Source: Candidatus Dormiibacterota bacterium (lineage in GTDB: Bacteria > Chloroflexota > Dormibacteria > CF-121). Taken from it: 64,000 bases of DNA. Location: assembly GCA_035544955.1 (NCBI GenBank), contig DASZZN010000029.1:124001-188000 (forward strand). Reading direction: 5' to 3'. Shown piece by piece: positions 44,701 through 53,559 of the stretch. The notes below the pieces were generated by a model. It did not search any database. It was not told the origin of the DNA and saw only the letters and a program-made list of their open reading frames with translations. The translations under genes were made by a program, and so were the position numbers. Position 1 is the first letter of the stretch, and every line of letters starts with the position of its first letter.

Positions 44701-45633
44701 GTGACGCCCCCCAACAAGCCCTGGCCCGTGCTCGTCGCCGGCACTATTACCCGCGACGATGTCCGCACGCCAATGGGCGTCAACACGGACGGCCTCGGTG
44801 GATCGGCCACGTACTTCACGCTCGCGGCGCGCTTGTTCGCTCCCGTGTGGGTCGTTGGGACGGCCGGCCCCGACTTCATGCATGCGTTCCAGGCCGCGAT
44901 GAAAGGCACCGGTGCTGACCTCCGGAGCACGGTGACCTCCGAGCTCCCCACCTATCGATGGTTTGCCGAGCATGACTATGAGACCGGCACCACCCGCAAC
45001 GAGCGCTCTGATCAGGGCGCGTACCGCGGCTTCACCCCGGTCCTCAGCGCCGACCAGCGCAAGGCCAAGATCGTTTTCCTCGGCAGCATGGAGCCGCGTC
45101 ATCAGATGCGGGTCCTCGAACAGCTCGACGACCCGTGGCTCGTCGCGGGCGACACGATGAAGCTCTACATTCGCGAGCAGCCGGATGCCCTCGAACCGGT
45201 TCTCCAGCGGCTCGACTACATGTTCCTCAACGCCTCGGAGGCGATGGCGCTGGCGAAGGTCGAAACCATCGAGGAGGCGTCAGAGCAGCTGCGCCGTCGC
45301 TTCACGTTGCGCGGGCTCGTCATCAAGGAGGGGCCGAAAGGCGCCACCCTCTACCGTCACGGTGAGGACATTCACCTTCCCGCCCTACCCGTCGATCCGC
45401 CCATTGACCCGACCGGCGCGGGCGACGCAGTGGCCGCCGGGTTCCTCGGATGCCTCGCCGAACAGCAGGTGGAGACCGACGACTCGGTGCGCCTGGCACT
45501 CGGGTACGCCATGGTGATGGCGTCCTTCACCATCCAGCATTTCAGCGTGCGCGGCTTGCAGCCCATTACGCGCGAGGACGTCGAGGCGCGGATGGCATCG
45601 ATGGCGTGGCTCCCGTCGATATCCAGGGGATGA
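44701..45633 (+). CDS. PfkB-family carbohydrate/nucleoside kinase
   Basis: A 310-residue ribokinase-fold protein. The N-terminal GLGGSATYFTLAARLF corresponds to the GG substrate region. LVIKEGPKGATLYRHG and the signature DPTGAGDAVAAGFLGCL, with the catalytic Asp, lie in the C-terminal third. Substrates of this branch include ribose, adenosine and other sugars. The GTG start is at 44701. The stop overlaps the macro-domain ATG (ATGA), so the two are coupled. Confidence 0.9.
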   Translation: MTPPNKPWPVLVAGTITRDDVRTPMGVNTDGLGGSATYFTLAARLFAPVWVVGTAGPDFMHAFQAAMKGTGADLRSTVTSELPTYRWFAEHDYETGTTRNERSDQGAYRGFTPVLSADQRKAKIVFLGSMEPRHQMRVLEQLDDPWLVAGDTMKLYIREQPDALEPVLQRLDYMFLNASEAMALAKVETIEEASEQLRRRFTLRGLVIKEGPKGATLYRHGEDIHLPALPVDPPIDPTGAGDAVAAGFLGCLAEQQVETDDSVRLALGYAMVMASFTIQHFSVRGLQPITREDVEARMASMAWLPSISRG

Positions 45634-46211
45634 GCTGGCAGGCTGGGAGCCTGACGGTCGAGGTCCTGCAGGGCGACCTGACGCAACAGGATGTCGACGC
45701 CATCGTCAATGCGGCCAACAACGACCTGGAGCTTGGTGCCGGCGTTGCCGGGGCCATCGCCCGTGCCGGTGGTCCGACGATTCAGGCTGAGTGCCGGGCG
45801 ATCGGCCGCATCGCGGTCGGCGATGCCGCCATCACCGGCGGGGGGACGTTGACGGCGCGCTATGTCATCCATGCGACAAGCATGCGCCTGGGCGGTCGGA
45901 CCAACGCCGAGAGTTTGCGCGGCTCGACACGGCGCAGCCTCGAGATCGCCAAGGCGAACGAACTGCGGTCGGTCGCGTTTCCTGCCGTCGGCACCGGGGT
46001 CGCCCACTTCCCGATGAACGAGTGCGCCCGGATCATGCTGGAAGAGGTGGTGGCGCACGGCAGGAATCCGACCAGCATCCGCGAGGTTCGCTTTGTCCTC
46101 TTCGGCGCGGAGGCGGAGGCCGCGTTCCGCAACGAGGCGCGCCGCCAGCTAGTGGCCGCTGAACAGTCCGGGGAAGAAGATCGAGGCAAGGAACGCCAGC
46201 GTCACGAATGA
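45630..46211 (+). CDS. Macro domain (ADP-ribose-binding) protein
   Basis: A 193-residue macro domain. VEVLQGDLTQQDVDAIVNAANN, LGAGVAGAIARAGG and VAFPAVGTGVAHFP are the adenine- and ribose-phosphate-binding loops. Members bind ADP-ribose and often remove it from proteins or deacetylate O-acetyl-ADP-ribose. ATG 45630 overlaps the PfkB stop. The last 63 bases overlap the convergent Nramp-related gene, so the C-terminal KERQRHE tail is probably not important. Confidence 0.92.
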   Translation: MSWQAGSLTVEVLQGDLTQQDVDAIVNAANNDLELGAGVAGAIARAGGPTIQAECRAIGRIAVGDAAITGGGTLTARYVIHATSMRLGGRTNAESLRGSTRRSLEIAKANELRSVAFPAVGTGVAHFPMNECARIMLEEVVAHGRNPTSIREVRFVLFGAEAEAAFRNEARRQLVAAEQSGEEDRGKERQRHE

Positions 46212-47456
46212 CAGAAAGACGAAGACGATCCCACTGAAGACGTTGAAGAGTGCCGTATTCGCGTAGCGTCCCATGACGCGCTTGTCGTTCGCCAGCAACA
46301 TCAGGATCGGTAAGAGCAACGGCAGCATCAGACCGTTGACGATGTTCGGAAGGTTCGTGATCAGTGCGAGGGGAGCGCCCGGGAACATCGCGATCGCGGC
46401 CCCCAACACGATCATCGTGGTGTAGATCGTCAAGAAAGCGGGGGCCTCTCTGAATGACTTGTCGATGCCGCGCTCCCAGCCAAACGCCTCCGTGATGGCG
46501 TACGTGGTCGAGAGGGGAAGCACGGACGCCGCCATCAGCGAGGCGTTGAGCAGCCCGATTGCGAAGAGTTGCTCCGCGTACTGGCCGGCCAGTGGCTTGA
46601 GGGCCAGGGCGATCTTGGCGAAGGCTGAAGGGTCCGCCGGGTCGACGGGCACGTGGTGGACAAAAACCGTGGCACCCGTCGCCACGATGATGAAGAAGGC
46701 CACCACATTCAGCGCGAGAATCCCGGTGTATGTATCGATGCGTTCGAATCGCAGTTGGCTCGGATGGAGACCCTTATCGGCCACATTCGACTGCTGAAAG
46801 AAGGCCATCCAGGGCGTGATCGTCGTGCCGACGATCGTGATGAAGATCAAGAGGTAGGACGCCGTGAAGTGAAACGTCGGCACGACGGTGTGGTGGATCA
46901 CTTCATTCCATTTCGGATGAGCCAGGATGGCCGAGACGATGTATGAGACGAATACGAGGCTGAGAATCAGCAACAGTCGTTCGACCACACGAAACGAGCC
47001 GCGTAGGACGAGGAACCAGACGAACACCGCGGCCAGCGGGATCGCGATGTAGCGGGCGAAGTCACCGAAGAGGAGTTGCGAGGCGCCGGCGATGCCGGCG
47101 AACTCGGCCACGGTCGTCGCGGCGTTGGCGATGAAGAGCAGCAGCATGACCCAGACCGTCGGCGCCACCCCGAACCGTTCGCGAATCATGTCGGAGAGTC
47201 CCTTGCCGGTGACCGTTCCCATCCGAGCGACCATTTCCTGGATGGCGACGAGGCAAAACGCGGTGACGATCAGCAGCCATAACAGGTCATAGCCAAACTG
47301 CGACCCAGCGAGCGCGTATCCCGTGACTCCTGTGGCGTCGTTGTCGACCGTACCGGTGATAATTCCCGGCCCCGCCACCGAGAGCAGCATGAGGAGCCGA
47401 ACCCGCCGGCTCCGGAGTGCTCCGAGCGACCGCTGCAGCGCCTTCGGCTGCGCCAC
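46149..47456 (-). CDS. Nramp-related (SLC11-like) metal transporter with altered metal site
   Basis: About 435 residues with some eleven membrane helices of the SLC11 fold. The canonical Nramp helix-1 motif DPGN is replaced by DNDATG (about residues 38-43), and the helix-6 MPH motif by ITPWMAFFQQS. Loss of these soft-metal ligands is the mark of Nramp-related magnesium transporters rather than Mn/Fe carriers. It lies eight bases after a gene for a soluble MgtE-type Mg2+ sensor, which supports Mg2+ as substrate. GTG 47456 is chosen; an ATG at 47525 would overlap the upstream gene by 62 bases. Confidence 0.85.
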   Translation of the reverse strand: MAQPKALQRSLGALRSRRVRLLMLLSVAGPGIITGTVDNDATGVTGYALAGSQFGYDLLWLLIVTAFCLVAIQEMVARMGTVTGKGLSDMIRERFGVAPTVWVMLLLFIANAATTVAEFAGIAGASQLLFGDFARYIAIPLAAVFVWFLVLRGSFRVVERLLLILSLVFVSYIVSAILAHPKWNEVIHHTVVPTFHFTASYLLIFITIVGTTITPWMAFFQQSNVADKGLHPSQLRFERIDTYTGILALNVVAFFIIVATGATVFVHHVPVDPADPSAFAKIALALKPLAGQYAEQLFAIGLLNASLMAASVLPLSTTYAITEAFGWERGIDKSFREAPAFLTIYTTMIVLGAAIAMFPGAPLALITNLPNIVNGLMLPLLLPILMLLANDKRVMGRYANTALFNVFSGIVFVFLSFVTLAFLASIFFPGLFSGH

Positions 47457-47463
47457 CGTCTTC

Positions 47464-48717
47464 TTAGAAGATCCGTCGGCGGCGTCCGCCGGCCCGCGCC
47501 GGCATGACCCGCTCCATGACGTCATCGACCGTCACGATGCCGTGGATTCGGTTGTGCTCGTCGACCACCGGCACGGCCAGGAGGTTGTACTTCGAGGTCA
47601 CCTCGGCGACCTCGCGCGGCCCGGCGTCGAGCCGGACGGAAATCACGTTCTTGATCATGAAGTCGCGGATCTTGGTCTCGGGCTTGGCCACGATCAGGTC
47701 GCGCAGGGACAGGACGCCCAGCAGATGCTCCTCCTCGTCGATGACGTAGACGTAATAGACGCTCTCGGCATCCGGCTCGAGCTCGCGCAGGCGTTCGATC
47801 GCCTCAGCGGCGGTCAGGGTATGCAGCACGGCGACGTACTCGGTGGTCATCAGGCCACCGGCCGTGTCCTCGCGATAGGCGAGCAGCTCCTCGACGTCGC
47901 CCGCCTCGTCTTCCTCCATTTTCTGCAGCAGCTGTTGAGCCCGCTCGCGCGGCATATCGGCCAACAAGTCCGCAACCTCGTCGGGGGCCATCGCTTCCAG
48001 GATGTCCGACGCGCGCTCGACGTCAAGACGTTCCAGGATGGAGGCCTGCATCTGCGGCTCGTCGATCTCCTCCAGGGTATCGGCGGCCTTCTCATCGTCG
48101 AGGGCGGCGAAGACCGCATTGCGATCGTCTGGGCTGAGCTCGTTGACGATATCCGCGATGTCGGCCGGGTGCAGCTTGGCGAGCTTGGTGTGGGCGATCC
48201 GAAGCTTGACCGAGCTAATGTCGGTCTTCACCGGGTCGACCGCCTCCCAGGAGATCAGCTTTTGTGGCCAATCCAGGCCGAGGGCGGCGGTAATCCGGCG
48301 CCCCAGCCCCTCGAGCCCGACGCGCCGCGCCAGCCCCCGGCTGCCGATATCGACACCGATCACGAGCATCGACCCTTCCACCTGGGACAGCTGCAGGTCA
48401 TTCACCCGCACCACCCGGCGGCCGTCCATGTCGACGATCTGTTTGTCCAGAATCTGCCGCGCAAGCCACAGCTCGGTATCGGCGCGGCTGTGCGGCTGTA
48501 AGCTGGCGGCATCGACTTTCAGGCTGAGCTCTTTGTTGTCCCAGCTGCGAACCACCGACCAGTCGACGGAGCGCACCTTTCGGCTGTTCTTCAGGATGAC
48601 CCCGGTGACCTTGGGAAAGGGCTCGGTCATCACCACAACGAGGTCTCGAACTCGCCCGACGCGATGCTGTCGAACGTCGACAACCTCAGCGTTGAGGAAG
48701 TCGCTGAGGAAGATCAA
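47464..48717 (-). CDS. Soluble MgtE-type Mg2+ sensor (PRC-barrel, MgtE_N, CBS pair), no membrane domain
   Basis: A 417-residue cytosolic protein. Residues 1-70 are PRC-barrel-like (AEVVDVRQHRVGRVRDLVVV) and 85-160 a second barrel-like segment. Residues 180-280 are the helical superhelix of MgtE (LHPADIADIVNELSPDDRN, LLADMPRERAQQLLQKM). Two CBS repeats fill 287-405 (YREDTAGGLMTTEYVAV, YNLLAVPVVDEHNRIHGIV). It ends [17 protein letters not shown] with no transmembrane helices, so it is the sensor half of MgtE alone. It is placed between fabF and an Nramp-related transporter gene and likely gates or stabilises that transporter (inference). Confidence 0.9.
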   Translation of the reverse strand: MIFLSDFLNAEVVDVRQHRVGRVRDLVVVMTEPFPKVTGVILKNSRKVRSVDWSVVRSWDNKELSLKVDAASLQPHSRADTELWLARQILDKQIVDMDGRRVVRVNDLQLSQVEGSMLVIGVDIGSRGLARRVGLEGLGRRITAALGLDWPQKLISWEAVDPVKTDISSVKLRIAHTKLAKLHPADIADIVNELSPDDRNAVFAALDDEKAADTLEEIDEPQMQASILERLDVERASDILEAMAPDEVADLLADMPRERAQQLLQKMEEDEAGDVEELLAYREDTAGGLMTTEYVAVLHTLTAAEAIERLRELEPDAESVYYVYVIDEEEHLLGVLSLRDLIVAKPETKIRDFMIKNVISVRLDAGPREVAEVTSKYNLLAVPVVDEHNRIHGIVTVDDVMERVMPARAGGRRRRIF

Positions 48718-48720
48718 ACG

Positions 48721-49968
48721 CTAGCCTCGGAATTGCTTGAAGAGCAAGGACGCGTTGTGGCCGCCGAAGCCAAAGGAGTTCGACAGCGCCAGTTTGATGT
48801 CGAGCTCGCGCGCGCCCTCTGGGATGTAGTCGAGGTCACATTGCGGGTCCGGATGCTCGAGGTTGATGGTGGGCGGCGCCACGCCTTCCTCGACGGCCTT
48901 CACGGAAATCACCGCTTCGACCGAGCCGGCGGCGCCGAGCAGATGTCCCAGCATCGATTTGGTCGAGCTGATCGGGATTCGGTACGCGGCGTCGCCAAAA
49001 ATATCTTTGAATGCGAGCGTTTCCGCAACGTCGCCCAGTTGGGTCGCTGTCCCATGGGCGTTGATGTAGCTCACGTCTTCCGGCGCGACCCGCGCTTTGG
49101 CCAGGGTGCGCTTCATCGCCTGGGCTGCGCCGGCGCCAACTGGATCGGGCGCCGTGATGTGGCCGGCGTCCGCGGTCGCGCCGTAGCCAACGATCTCGGC
49201 GATGATCGGCGCACCGCGTTTCCGCGCTGACTCGAGCTCCTCGAGGATCAAGATCCCGGCTCCTTCCCCCATCACGAAGCCGTCGCGCTCCAGGTCGAAC
49301 GGGCGGCTCGCCCTGGTGGCTTCGATGTCGCGCGTCGATACGGCACGCGAGGCGCAGAACGCGGCCAGCGCCAGCGGCGTGACGCACGCCTCACTACCGC
49401 CCGCGATCATGGCCATGGCGTCGCCCCGACGGATCGTTTCGAAGGCCTCGCCAATGGCGTGCGCACCGGAACTGCAAGCAGAAACCGTGCAGAAGTTCGG
49501 GCCGCGGGCACCCGTGGCGATTGAGATCTGGCCGGCGCCCATGTCCGCGATCATCATCGGCACGGTGAAGGGACTGATGCGAGACGGTCCACGTTCCTTG
49601 AGGATGGTGTGCGCCTCCTCGATCATCTCCAGGCCGCCGATCGCGCTCCCCACGATGACACCGACCCGGTCTCGGTTCGCCTCGGTGACCTGGAGCCCTG
49701 AGCCTTCGAGCGCTTCGCGGGTGGCGACCATGGCGAACTGGACGAATCGCGACATCCGGCGCGCCTCCTTCCGGTCGAGGCGAGCCTCAGGCTTGAAATC
49801 CACTACCTCACTCGCCACCTTGCTCGGCATAGCCGATGGATCGAAGGTCTGCACGCGGCGCACGCCCGATCGGCCAGCCTTGACGGCCTCCCAGGTCTCA
49901 CGCGTGGTGTGACCAAGCGAGGTGATGGCGCCGGTGCCGGTGACCACGACTCGCGTACCATTTACCAT
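48721..49968 (-). CDS. fabF: 3-oxoacyl-ACP synthase II
   Basis: A 415-residue condensing enzyme with the full Cys-His-His set: VSACSSGAHA, INAHGTATQLGD and MLGHLLGAAGS. It extends acyl-ACP with malonyl-ACP. It begins seven bases inside the end of the FabH-like gene and stops four bases before the MgtE-type gene. A second intact fabF lies at 52324. Having two may reflect different chain-length preferences or pairing with the degenerate FabH-like protein. Confidence 0.96.
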   Translation of the reverse strand: MVNGTRVVVTGTGAITSLGHTTRETWEAVKAGRSGVRRVQTFDPSAMPSKVASEVVDFKPEARLDRKEARRMSRFVQFAMVATREALEGSGLQVTEANRDRVGVIVGSAIGGLEMIEEAHTILKERGPSRISPFTVPMMIADMGAGQISIATGARGPNFCTVSACSSGAHAIGEAFETIRRGDAMAMIAGGSEACVTPLALAAFCASRAVSTRDIEATRASRPFDLERDGFVMGEGAGILILEELESARKRGAPIIAEIVGYGATADAGHITAPDPVGAGAAQAMKRTLAKARVAPEDVSYINAHGTATQLGDVAETLAFKDIFGDAAYRIPISSTKSMLGHLLGAAGSVEAVISVKAVEEGVAPPTINLEHPDPQCDLDYIPEGARELDIKLALSNSFGFGGHNASLLFKQFRG

Positions 49969-50900
49969 TCGGCGATCCCTCCACCACCCCAGCGAAGACA
50001 GGCGGCCGCCCAGGTCGGGCCACTGCCACAGGCGAGCAGGAGCGCCGTCATGCCGTTTTGCAGCTCGCCCGCGTGGACCGCGTCGTGCAGCGCGGTCAAC
50101 GGTGCGGCTGCCCGCAACGATCCATAGCGCACTGGGTCGAGCAGGATGCGGCTCGATGAGACCCCGGCTTGCTTACTCCAGGCCTGCATGATGTCTGGCG
50201 CCGACTGCTCGCCGATCACCAGGTCGATCTCCGACATGGCTAGGTTCGCCTTCTGCAGGCATTCGGCCGCCGCCTCGGTAAGCCCACGCAGCAGCGTGCG
50301 ATCGTGGGCGTCGCCATTCACGTCGCTCCGTGCTGCACCACCTGCCATCGTGGACAGGACCCCGCCGTCGTCGCCCGCCTGAGTGAGCACCACGGCCGCC
50401 GCCACGCGGGTATGAACTCTCCCGCCCTGTCCGGGCAGGTCGACCAGTTGGTTATCCGACTCGGCCCCGATCAGCAAGACGCCCCGCGCGCCGGCGGCCG
50501 TGTAGCGGATCCCGACATTGAGCGCCGCCAGCATGCTCGTCTCCGCCGCGTACAGGTCAAAGCTTCCGACCATGGGGAGCTTCAGCTCCGTCTGCACCAA
50601 GCAGGCGGTGGTGGGCCAGAGCACGTCCGGTGTACTGGTGCCGACGATGATCATCTCGATGTCGGACGAGTTCACGCCGGCGGCCCGCAACGCGGCGCGC
50701 GCGGCGCCGGCCGCCAGCGATGGCGTGCTCAGGCCCTGGTCGGCCTTCACGCGATAGGAAACGCCCGTCAGATCCGTCCCAGTGACGCGCCGCGCCAGCG
50801 GCGCATCCGCCGGAGGGCGATAGATGCCCAGGCCGGCGATCGCCCCAAGGGCTAATCCGCGGCGTGCCTGGGCAAGCGACGGCATAGAGGCGGAAGTCAC
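49962..50900 (-). CDS. FabH-like (KAS III) protein lacking the catalytic triad
   Basis: A 312-residue thiolase-fold protein with KAS III order: SLAAGAARAALRAAGV, IIVGTSTPDVLWPTTACLVQ, then FDLYAAETSM where FabH has the catalytic Cys. At that position it has Glu120. The His of the usual PHQAN is replaced in VIGEQSAPD (Glu231). The Asn of YGN is replaced in VRYGSLRAAA (Ser261). It cannot condense acetyl-CoA by the normal mechanism. It overlaps fabF by seven bases. It may act as a partner subunit or scaffold, as chain-length factors do in polyketide synthases, or bind an acyl ligand. Confidence 0.85.
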   Translation of the reverse strand: MTSASMPSLAQARRGLALGAIAGLGIYRPPADAPLARRVTGTDLTGVSYRVKADQGLSTPSLAAGAARAALRAAGVNSSDIEMIIVGTSTPDVLWPTTACLVQTELKLPMVGSFDLYAAETSMLAALNVGIRYTAAGARGVLLIGAESDNQLVDLPGQGGRVHTRVAAAVVLTQAGDDGGVLSTMAGGAARSDVNGDAHDRTLLRGLTEAAAECLQKANLAMSEIDLVIGEQSAPDIMQAWSKQAGVSSSRILLDPVRYGSLRAAAPLTALHDAVHAGELQNGMTALLLACGSGPTWAAACLRWGGGGIAEW

Positions 50901-51382: not shown

Positions 51383-52327
51383 GTGGCCTTCGTTTTCCCG
51401 GGGCAGGGTTCGCAGTACGTGGGGATGGGCAAGGCCCTCTTCGACGTTTCCGAGACCGCGCGCCACGTCTTCCGGCGGGCGGACGAGACCCTTGGCTTCG
51501 GGCTGACCCGCATGTGCTTCGAGGGACCCGAGCAGGACCTCAACGACACCATCAACGCTCAGCCCGCGATCCTCACCGTGAGCATCGCCTGCCTCAATGT
51601 GCTGCGCGAGCGGTGGCAGGCCCTGGGTCAGGTGGTCGCCCCCCAGTACGTCGCCGGCCATAGCCTGGGCGAGTTCACCGCGCTGGTCGCAGCGGACGTC
51701 ATCGATTTCGACAGTGCGCTGCGGCTGGTGCGTGAGCGCGGCCGGTTGATGAAAGAGAACGGCACCGAGCGGCCAGGCGGGATGCTCGCCGTCCTGGGAC
51801 TCGATCGAGATGTGATCGAAGCCGTCGTCGCCGAGGCGGGCGCCGTGGGGATCATCACCGTCGCCAACGCCAACTCCCCCGGGCAGATCGTGCTCTCCGG
51901 CGAGAGCGCAGCGCTCGATCGCGCCACCGAACTCGCCCGCGCTCGGGGCGCCTCGCGGGTGGTCCGGCTGCCGATCAGCATCGCATCGCACTCACCGCTG
52001 ATGGCCCGGGCCGCCGCCCAATTCGGCGAGATCGTCGCCCGGCTGCCGCTCCGTCAGCCGCGGATTCCAGTCGTGGCCAATATCACCGGACAGATCCTGA
52101 CCAGCGCCGACGACATCCGCAAGGAGCTTGCCGACCACATCTTGAAGCCGGTCCAGTGGACGGCGTCGGTCGTCGAGATGGTCGCCCGCGGCAGCGCGGA
52201 ATTCCTCGAGATCGGGCCCGGCCAGGTGCTCTCCGGGTTGATCCGGCGCATCAGCCAGGACTCTCACGTCGTTACCCTCAACGACCGCGAGGTCGCGCGC
52301 GTCGTCACCCCCTCCCCATCGGGATGA
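51383..52327 (+). CDS. fabD: Malonyl-CoA:ACP transacylase
   Basis: A 314-residue transacylase. FVFPGQGSQYVGMG starts the fold, VAGHSLGEFTAL carries the nucleophile Ser, and SIASHSPLM holds the catalytic His. It loads malonate from CoA onto ACP. The start is GTG 51383, 41 bases after acpP. The stop overlaps the ATG of fabF (ATGA). Confidence 0.96.
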   Translation: MAFVFPGQGSQYVGMGKALFDVSETARHVFRRADETLGFGLTRMCFEGPEQDLNDTINAQPAILTVSIACLNVLRERWQALGQVVAPQYVAGHSLGEFTALVAADVIDFDSALRLVRERGRLMKENGTERPGGMLAVLGLDRDVIEAVVAEAGAVGIITVANANSPGQIVLSGESAALDRATELARARGASRVVRLPISIASHSPLMARAAAQFGEIVARLPLRQPRIPVVANITGQILTSADDIRKELADHILKPVQWTASVVEMVARGSAEFLEIGPGQVLSGLIRRISQDSHVVTLNDREVARVVTPSPSG

Positions 52328-53559
52328 AACGCGTCGTCGTGACCGGGGTGGGGGCCGTGACGCCCGTCGGTCTCGATGCGCCCAGTACGTGGGCCGCGAT
52401 GCTGGAAGGCCAGTCCGGCGTGGGGAAGATCACCCTCTTCGACGCGAGCGAGTTTCCGGTGCAGATCGCGGGCGAGGTGAAGGGCTTCGACGCGACCGGC
52501 CGGATCGAGCCCAAGGAGCTGCGGCGCATGGACCGCTATGCGCAGCTCGGACTGGTCGCCGCCCAGGAGGCATTCGCCGATGCCGGGATGACGAAGAACG
52601 GCCTGCTCGACGACGTCGGGGTGATCTTCGGCAGCGCCGCGGGCGGGCTTGGCGTCTTCCTCGAACAGCAACGCATCCTCCAGGAGCGCGGGCTCAAGAG
52701 GGTCAGCCCCACCTTCATTCAGAACATGCTGACCGACACGGCTTCCGGGCATATCGCGATCGCGCTCGGCCTGCGTGGCCCAAACATGGCGGTGGTTTCG
52801 GCCTGCGCTACCGGCAGCGGCGCCGTAGGAGAGGCGTTCGAGACCATCCGCCGCGGCGATGCCGACGCGATCATGACCGGGGGCGCAGAAGCCGTCCTCG
52901 TTCCCGTCGTATACGCGGGGTTCTGCGCGATGCGGGCCCTGGCCCAGCATGAGGATCCCACCCAGGCATCCCGCCCGTTCGACAAGGAACGCAACGGCTT
53001 CGTGATCTCGGAGGGTGCAGGGGCCCTGCTACTCGAGGAGCTGGAACACGCCCGCCAGCGCGGAGCGCGAATCTACGCGGAGGTGATCGGCTACGGCTCC
53101 AGCAACGACGCCTTCGACATGGCGGCGCCGGCAGAAGGCGAAGGCGCCGTGCTGACCATGCAACGGGCTTTGCGCAAGGCCGAGATCGAGCCCGAGCGGG
53201 TCGACTACATCAACGCGCACGGCACCGGGACTCCGATGAACGACAAATTCGAGACCGACGCCATCCACCGCGTCTTCGGGAAGCACGCCGACAAGCTCGC
53301 GGTCAGCAGCACCAAGTCGATGACCGGCCACATGATGGGCGCCTCGGGCGCAGTCGAGGCGGTGGTGCTGGCGCTGACCATCCGCGACCAGGTGATCGCG
53401 CCAACGATCAACTTGCAGACGCCCGATCCCGAGTGTGACCTCGACTACGTTCCGATGCAGGCGCGCCGAGCCGATATCGGCGTCGCGCTGTCGAACTCTT
53501 TCGGGCTTGGCGGTCACAACGCGAGCGTGATCTTCTCGCGCTACGCGGCGCGAAGTTGA
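52324..53559 (+). CDS. fabF: 3-oxoacyl-ACP synthase II (second copy)
   Basis: A 411-residue condensing enzyme beginning MKRVVVTGVGAVTPVG. The Cys-His-His set is intact: VSACATGSGA, INAHGTGTPMND, SMTGHMMGASG. ATG 52324 overlaps the fabD stop. It differs clearly from the minus-strand copy at 48721, so the duplication is old. No fabG, fabZ or fabI gene is in the window. Confidence 0.96.
   Translation: MKRVVVTGVGAVTPVGLDAPSTWAAMLEGQSGVGKITLFDASEFPVQIAGEVKGFDATGRIEPKELRRMDRYAQLGLVAAQEAFADAGMTKNGLLDDVGVIFGSAAGGLGVFLEQQRILQERGLKRVSPTFIQNMLTDTASGHIAIALGLRGPNMAVVSACATGSGAVGEAFETIRRGDADAIMTGGAEAVLVPVVYAGFCAMRALAQHEDPTQASRPFDKERNGFVISEGAGALLLEELEHARQRGARIYAEVIGYGSSNDAFDMAAPAEGEGAVLTMQRALRKAEIEPERVDYINAHGTGTPMNDKFETDAIHRVFGKHADKLAVSSTKSMTGHMMGASGAVEAVVLALTIRDQVIAPTINLQTPDPECDLDYVPMQARRADIGVALSNSFGLGGHNASVIFSRYAARS

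Follow-up and report, generated by a model that had tools for sequence, protein, structure and literature searches.

A detached MgtE-type sensor encoded beside an Nramp-related Mg2+ transporter in a Chloroflexota bacterium: a candidate two-subunit uptake system

The DNA analyzed here (the window) is a stretch of 64,000 nucleotides (nt) from Candidatus Dormiibacterota bacterium (GCA_035544955.1, contig DASZZN010000029.1), a Chloroflexota genome of 3.67 Mb that is 95% complete. Its minus strand carries a gene for an MgtE-type sensor that has no pore of its own, directly followed by a gene for an Nramp-related Mg2+ transporter (NRMT). The two products probably form a system of two subunits for Mg2+ uptake, with the sensor as the MgtE-derived regulatory subunit of an uncoupled carrier. 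The nearest named relatives of the organism are metagenome-assembled genomes (MAGs) titled "Chloroflexi bacterium", whose depth labels suggest a soil origin.

Identity of the transporter

The transporter scores 304.6 bits (1.2e-90) against the Pfam Nramp model, which places it in the Nramp/SLC11 family. Its best solved relative is EleNRMT of Eggerthella lenta (7qia; E-value 6e-101), and the next Nramps follow at approximately 1e-18 (best 2.5e-18). As the initial annotation had observed, the DPGN and MPH motifs of the Mn/Fe Nramps (MntH/DMT) are replaced, here by DATG and TPW; the DATG and TTIT segments fit the metal-site signature DxxG-TxxA/T published for the NRMT clade (PMC8806188). Additionally, the helix-6b histidines of the proton pathway are replaced (PWMAFFQQ in the window protein versus PHVIYLHS in DraNramp).

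In a tree of 66 rows, which contains only three classical Nramps and has long branches meeting at the NRMT/Nramp split, the window transporter clusters with EleNRMT and is separated from the classical Nramps by a branch with 100/100 support. The metal-site signature and the E-values agree with the split, and the anticipated grouping with Mg2+ NRMTs instead of Mn/Fe Nramps is thereby borne out. The tree has no rows for the proteins from A. capsulatum and C. acetobutylicum, which were not returned by the contig scan. Judged on its sequence, the window transporter is an NRMT, and Mg2+ transport is predicted.

Further members of the family are encoded in the window genome. A second NRMT-type carrier (L004; G000:C49:48501-49721; 41% identical) has DAGG and TTITPW motifs, and the genome holds no second MgtE_N sensor. 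Two Nramp-family paralogues (L003, C12:127571-128668; L005, C30:61184-62257) have DPSG and TTISPY sites and form a clade of their own, outside both the NRMTs and the classical Nramps.

Domain organization of the sensor

Pfam recognizes one PRC barrel (24.1 bits; cut-off 21.2), MgtE_N (97.4 bits) and two CBS domains (68.7 bits) in the sensor. One of the PRC barrels proposed earlier is thus confirmed by PF05239, and the second is a probable PRC-like unit suggested by the secondary structure of an AlphaFold2 (AF2) model. The absence of a membrane channel also holds: Pfam detects no MgtE pore domain (PF01769), the plug helix and its residues E258/D259 are missing, and no membrane segment is present, with no 19-residue hydrophobic peak above 1.01 on the Kyte-Doolittle scale. 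The sensor matches the cytosolic domain of T. thermophilus MgtE (TtMgtE; E-value 2e-45), and its AF2 model (mean predicted local distance difference test score, 90.4) superposes on the Mg2+-bound cytosolic domain (2yvy) with a root-mean-square deviation of 2.0 Å and a template-modeling score of 0.85 by target length.

The ligand positions of MgtE (PMC5882242) were mapped onto 131 proteins, namely the window sensor and 130 related sensors. The Mg4/Mg6 ligands are largely kept, with D91 retained in 128, D95 in 124 and D247 in all 131, and the E59 position is Asp or Glu in 128. Among the ATP-site residues (PMC5529423), the window sensor keeps Tyr170, Arg187 and Asp188 and lacks Asn203 and Phe227. 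The missing pore would also fit a remnant of mgtE, cut short and with a cytosolic half that no longer functions, and this explanation is very improbable: the gene is intact, identity among its products within the genus and family is 82-97%, and the sensor is conserved across phyla, including the key acidic positions.

The pore domain PF01769 is absent from the entire window genome, which encodes a single MgtE_N (the sensor) and one CorA. The sensor therefore cannot serve an MgtE channel.

Pairing of sensor and transporter across genomes

A collection-wide scan yielded 80 named NRMT loci, two of which begin their contigs at the NRMT, leaving 78 that are informative. A sensor lies directly upstream on the same strand in 74 of these (one partial, L083) and is absent from 4, and in most of the 74 the two open reading frames overlap or abut. 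The named loci come from approximately ten phyla, and among their titles are Chloroflexota, Actinomycetota, Nitrospirota, Bacillota, Desulfuromonadales, Armatimonadota, Margulisiibacteriota, WOR-1, Saganbacteria and one archaeon. Chance pairing is excluded because the pair is conserved across phyla.

Counts within individual groups likewise show the sensor to be a regular partner of the NRMT. In Bacillota (199 genomes), a sensor adjoins all 20 NRMT matches below 1e-80, and two weaker matches (approximately 1e-60) have none. In the class of the window organism (61 genomes), 59 of the 62 sensor matches adjoin an NRMT, arranged as sensor then NRMT (48), divergently (8) or as NRMT then sensor (3). 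In Actinomycetota (119 genomes), a hand count places 25 of the 42 PRC-type sensors beside an NRMT; sensors of the Actinomycete type are not among the 25. A protein 91% identical to EleNRMT (L209) also has a sensor next door (L183). No sensor-NRMT fusion was found among unusually long open reading frames, and in the two longest checked (G149 and G168) the sensor and the NRMT occupy different reading frames.

Some sensors have other neighbors. In L225, L226, L227 and L230 (Actinomycetes), no NRMT lies close to the sensor, and the genes that follow it encode a membrane protein with DUF1003 and an ATPase of the Mrp-like type. In a Bacillota MAG (L240:2873-5433), the sensor frame overlaps the end of an upstream Na+/H+ exchanger gene (PF00999), and the NRMT of that genome lies elsewhere (L102) without a sensor. 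In a genome of the same family as the window (L237; G017:C204), the sensor is kept with its fabF and FabH-like neighbors, and a MarR-like gene occupies the place of the NRMT.

Relatives of the sensor with a membrane domain

Eighteen PRC-type proteins run on past the CBS domains into a membrane domain of approximately 200 residues. They include proteins of Ktedonobacter (L101) and Thermogemmatispora (L156, L157) as well as L074, L078 and L233, and others are probably from Coriobacteriia, judging by L078 and kinship with EleNRMT. The membrane domain is recognized as PF01769 in both proteins scanned (L156 and L233), and 12 of the 18 lie directly upstream of an NRMT, in the same slot as the window sensor. 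When mapped to TtMgtE, the pore residue Asp432 of the Mg1 site is replaced in all 18 (Met in 6, Val in 5, Gly in 3, Ala in 3, Leu in 1) and the GGN motif is lost, whereas 7 of 7 ordinary MgtE channels keep both, which indicates that the PRC-MgtE proteins are probably pseudo-channels. When L074 was modeled with AF2, the result could be aligned with full-length MgtE across 427 columns, and the MgtE fold seems to be kept, although the model may have benefited from rows of ordinary MgtE in the input alignment.

The Eggerthella-type sensor beside the EleNRMT orthologue (L183, L185) ends in one predicted transmembrane helix and is nested among the pore-bearing forms (support 98/69; 100/99 for the larger clade). 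At least two changes of the membrane domain are required on the sensor tree; the tree itself does not fix their direction, and the existence of a pore lacking its key residue suggests loss. Among the pore-less NRMT-linked sensors, 71 of 81 end in a basic tail (net charge of at least +3, compared with 6% of internal 15-mers). The Actinomycete sensors have no such tail and form one clade, which corresponds to approximately one event. The tail was also considered as a universal feature and rejected, since only 11 of 20 Bacillota sensors have one.

It is quite possible, if still tentative, that PRC-type MgtE proteins beside NRMTs lost conduction and turned into pseudo-channel subunits with a gating role on the NRMT, and that most lineages, including that of the window, then shed the membrane part and retained a sensor tethered by a helix or tail.

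Organization of the locus

The features of the locus are listed in Table 1, with coordinates referring to the window. On the minus strand the order is FabH-like, fabF, sensor and NRMT, and the sensor frame opens with a TTG start 3 nt past the fabF stop. The open frame of the NRMT reaches an ATG at 47525, where the initial annotation had placed its 5' end and from which it would overlap the sensor by 62 nt. Alignments with homologues of the same genus (identity mostly 81-88%) begin only at approximately residue 24, which is why the GTG at 47456 is favored as the likelier start; the two genes are then probably non-overlapping, and the sensor lies directly upstream of the carrier, as proposed.

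Table 1. Features of the sensor-NRMT locus and its upstream neighbors
Feature	Position	Strand	Basis or remark
FabH-like gene, upstream neighbor	49962..50900	-	Not counted as part of the system
fabF, upstream neighbor	48721..49968	-	TIGR03150, 603.9 bits (cut-off 493.75); not counted as part of the system
Detached MgtE-type sensor, 417 residues	47464..48717	-	Pfam; match to TtMgtE cytosolic domain; AF2 model
PRC-barrel domain, residues 2-53	48559..48714	-	Pfam PF05239
Second beta-rich unit, residues ~82-163, probable second PRC-like barrel	48229..48474	-	AF2 secondary structure
MgtE_N, residues 182-284; Asp246/Asp250 at TtMgtE Mg4/Mg6 ligand positions D91/D95	47866..48174	-	
CBS pair, residues ~288-404; Asp399 (= D247); Asn378 replaces D226	47506..47856	-	
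Short basic C-terminal tail (16 residues), in place of MgtE plug helix and pore	47467..47514	-	
7-nt gap, sensor stop (TAA) to NRMT GTG start	47457..47463	-	
NRMT, Nramp-related Mg2+ transporter, 435 residues, GTG start at 47456	46149..47456	-	Pfam Nramp; EleNRMT match; tree; same-genus alignment
TM1 metal-site motif DATG (DPGN in Mn/Fe Nramps, DAGG in EleNRMT)	47328..47339	-	Alignment
TM6 metal-site motif TTITPW (ATVMPH in DraNramp, TTIAPW in EleNRMT)	46809..46826	-	Alignment
Alpha-10 position of EleNRMT Gln379, Asn in window NRMT (Gln in most NRMTs)	46344..46346	-	Alignment

The fabF and FabH-like genes, which the initial annotation had assigned to the operon, are indeed adjacent upstream; they probably do not belong to the system and were rejected as members because conservation of this neighborhood does not extend beyond the genus and family. 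A second fabF-type ketosynthase gene lies on the opposite strand (52156-53559, plus), and an open reading frame resembling FabD (acyltransferase; 51383-52327) lies between the two. Downstream, a gene for a Macro-domain protein (O-acetyl-ADP-ribose deacetylase-like; 45450-46211, plus) is convergent with the NRMT gene, with an overlap of approximately 60 nt between its 3' end and the NRMT stop.

Relation to known systems

Contrary to what the initial annotation had supposed, the pair is not a new arrangement. Shin et al. (2014) reported that most NrmT genes adjoin a gene for an "MgtE N-terminal domain" and proposed cytoplasmic feedback regulation (PMC4072509). As in the C. acetobutylicum and A. 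capsulatum operons of that study, the window carrier is encoded directly beside an MgtE-cytoplasmic-domain gene. The window locus differs in its phylum and in having no M-box, which precedes a subset of the NrmT operons; the sensor is encoded by one intact gene in the window, whereas the Ca_c0685 operon of C. acetobutylicum has it split. Additionally, the window sensor carries a PRC barrel, and PMC4072509 makes no use of the term PRC.

Compared with T. thermophilus MgtE (2yvx/2zy9; PMC5882242, PMC5529423), the window sensor shares the MgtE_N and CBS fold and the D91, D95 and D247 positions, but it has Asn at D226 and Leu at F227, adds an N-terminal PRC barrel, lacks the plug helix and pore, and is a separate polypeptide beside an unrelated transporter fold. 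EleNRMT shares with the window carrier the clade signature and the replaced helix-6b histidines, but it has DAGG/TTIA and Gln379 where the window protein has DATG/TTIT and Asn; the sensor beside its 91%-identical orthologue has a C-terminal transmembrane helix, and the window sensor has none. The part of the 2022 EleNRMT paper examined does not mention a neighboring regulator (PMC8806188). The Actinomycete PRC-MgtE_N-CBS proteins have the same soluble domain order as the window sensor and differ in having no NRMT alongside, no basic tail, and DUF1003 and Mrp-like genes next in order after them.

On NrmT together with MgtE, only Shin et al. (2014) and the 2022 EleNRMT paper were found. Nothing was found on a pore-less MgtE in an operon, MgtE with a PRC barrel and CBS, DUF1003 with MgtE, or MgtE_N and CBS with Nramp in the literature searched, which omits most subscription journals. 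The pair itself has thus been known since 2014; as far as found, its extent, the PRC part, the pseudo-pore relatives seen in Coriobacteriia and Ktedonobacteria, and the basic tail are new.

Proposed model and alternatives

By analogy with EleNRMT, the window NRMT would be an uncoupled Mg2+ carrier that is driven by the gradient and the membrane potential and not by protons. Because EleNRMT is reported to lack proton coupling (PMC8806188), a carrier of this kind would, like MgtE, require a brake. The upstream protein would be its dedicated cytosolic regulatory subunit, whose MgtE_N and CBS domains may bind Mg2+, and possibly an adenine nucleotide, in the manner of MgtE. At high cytosolic Mg2+, the N-CBS unit would compact and damp transport through the adjacent NRMT. 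The sensor probably descends from an ancestor of the MgtE type in which the pore first ceased to function and later dwindled to one helix or a short basic tail, either of which probably holds the sensor at the membrane or on the carrier; physical contact between the two proteins is presumed, as is a role for the PRC barrel.

Several observations weigh against this model. The Mg5 ligand position Asp226 is Asn in 105 of the 131 sensors, and D226N/D250A is a disabling Mg5 mutant of MgtE (PMC5882242); the ATP-stacking Phe227 position is Leu in 111, a residue also usual among the MgtE channels of the same sample. Together these two substitutions imply that sensing may differ from that of MgtE. The invariance of D247 is weak evidence alone because the position belongs to the general CBS motif. 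In the carrier, the equivalent of Gln379 is Asn throughout the window genus, and the EleNRMT mutation Q379A strongly impairs transport (PMC8806188); this helix-10 Gln is conserved and functionally important but lies outside the published clade signature.

The remaining points concern which ion is transported and what the sensor acts on. A distinctly unlikely alternative is that the pair is a Mn2+ system with a Mn2+-responsive sensor, as was suggested for the A. capsulatum pair. The A. capsulatum carrier behaved as a Mn2+ transporter, fully rescuing a Mn2+-uptake mutant and only partially a Mg2+ mutant (PMC4072509), EleNRMT also carries Mn2+ with a Km of approximately 120 μM (PMC8806188), and no M-box was found in 43-56 kb of the window. 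However, the metal site of the window carrier has the NRMT signature without a soft Met ligand, the carrier groups with EleNRMT, and related sensor-NRMT operons (approximately 45-50% identity) are under the control of the M-box Mg2+ riboswitch, which directly precedes the operon in L074, L090, L095, L099, L130, L257 and L258.

It is also rather unlikely that the sensor is merely co-expressed with the NRMT and acts elsewhere, as a Mg2+- or nucleotide-responsive regulator or a metal chaperone, without gating. PRC-MgtE_N-CBS proteins do occur with other neighbors, namely DUF1003 in Actinomycetes, the exchanger gene in L240 and a pyrG-like gene in Thermogemmatispora, and G017 has kept the sensor with a MarR-like gene in the NRMT position. 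The expectation that the sensor would not be common without a transporter fails for Actinomycetes, whose sensors have no adjacent NRMT (DUF1003 follows in the loci examined), and holds elsewhere. Additionally, two C. acetobutylicum NrmTs functioned in B. subtilis without an MgtE-like gene, and co-expression of the A. capsulatum pair there did not improve Mg2+ rescue (PMC4072509). Under starvation, however, a gate that works by negative feedback would not have to enhance rescue. The strong one-to-one pairing with NRMTs, the near overlap of the genes and the membrane-bearing forms in the same slot argue for joint action at the membrane.

Significance

In CorA and MgtE the Mg2+ gate is built in, and to our knowledge NRMTs have none within the polypeptide. 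If the two-subunit model is true, a gate derived from MgtE and encoded separately would account for the way in which cells stop an uncoupled carrier from overfilling them, and a function would be assigned to a gene left unexplained since 2014. It would also clearly exemplify the conversion of a channel to the regulatory subunit of another transporter fold. The pairing identifies a partner for co-expression with EleNRMT in assays that already exist.

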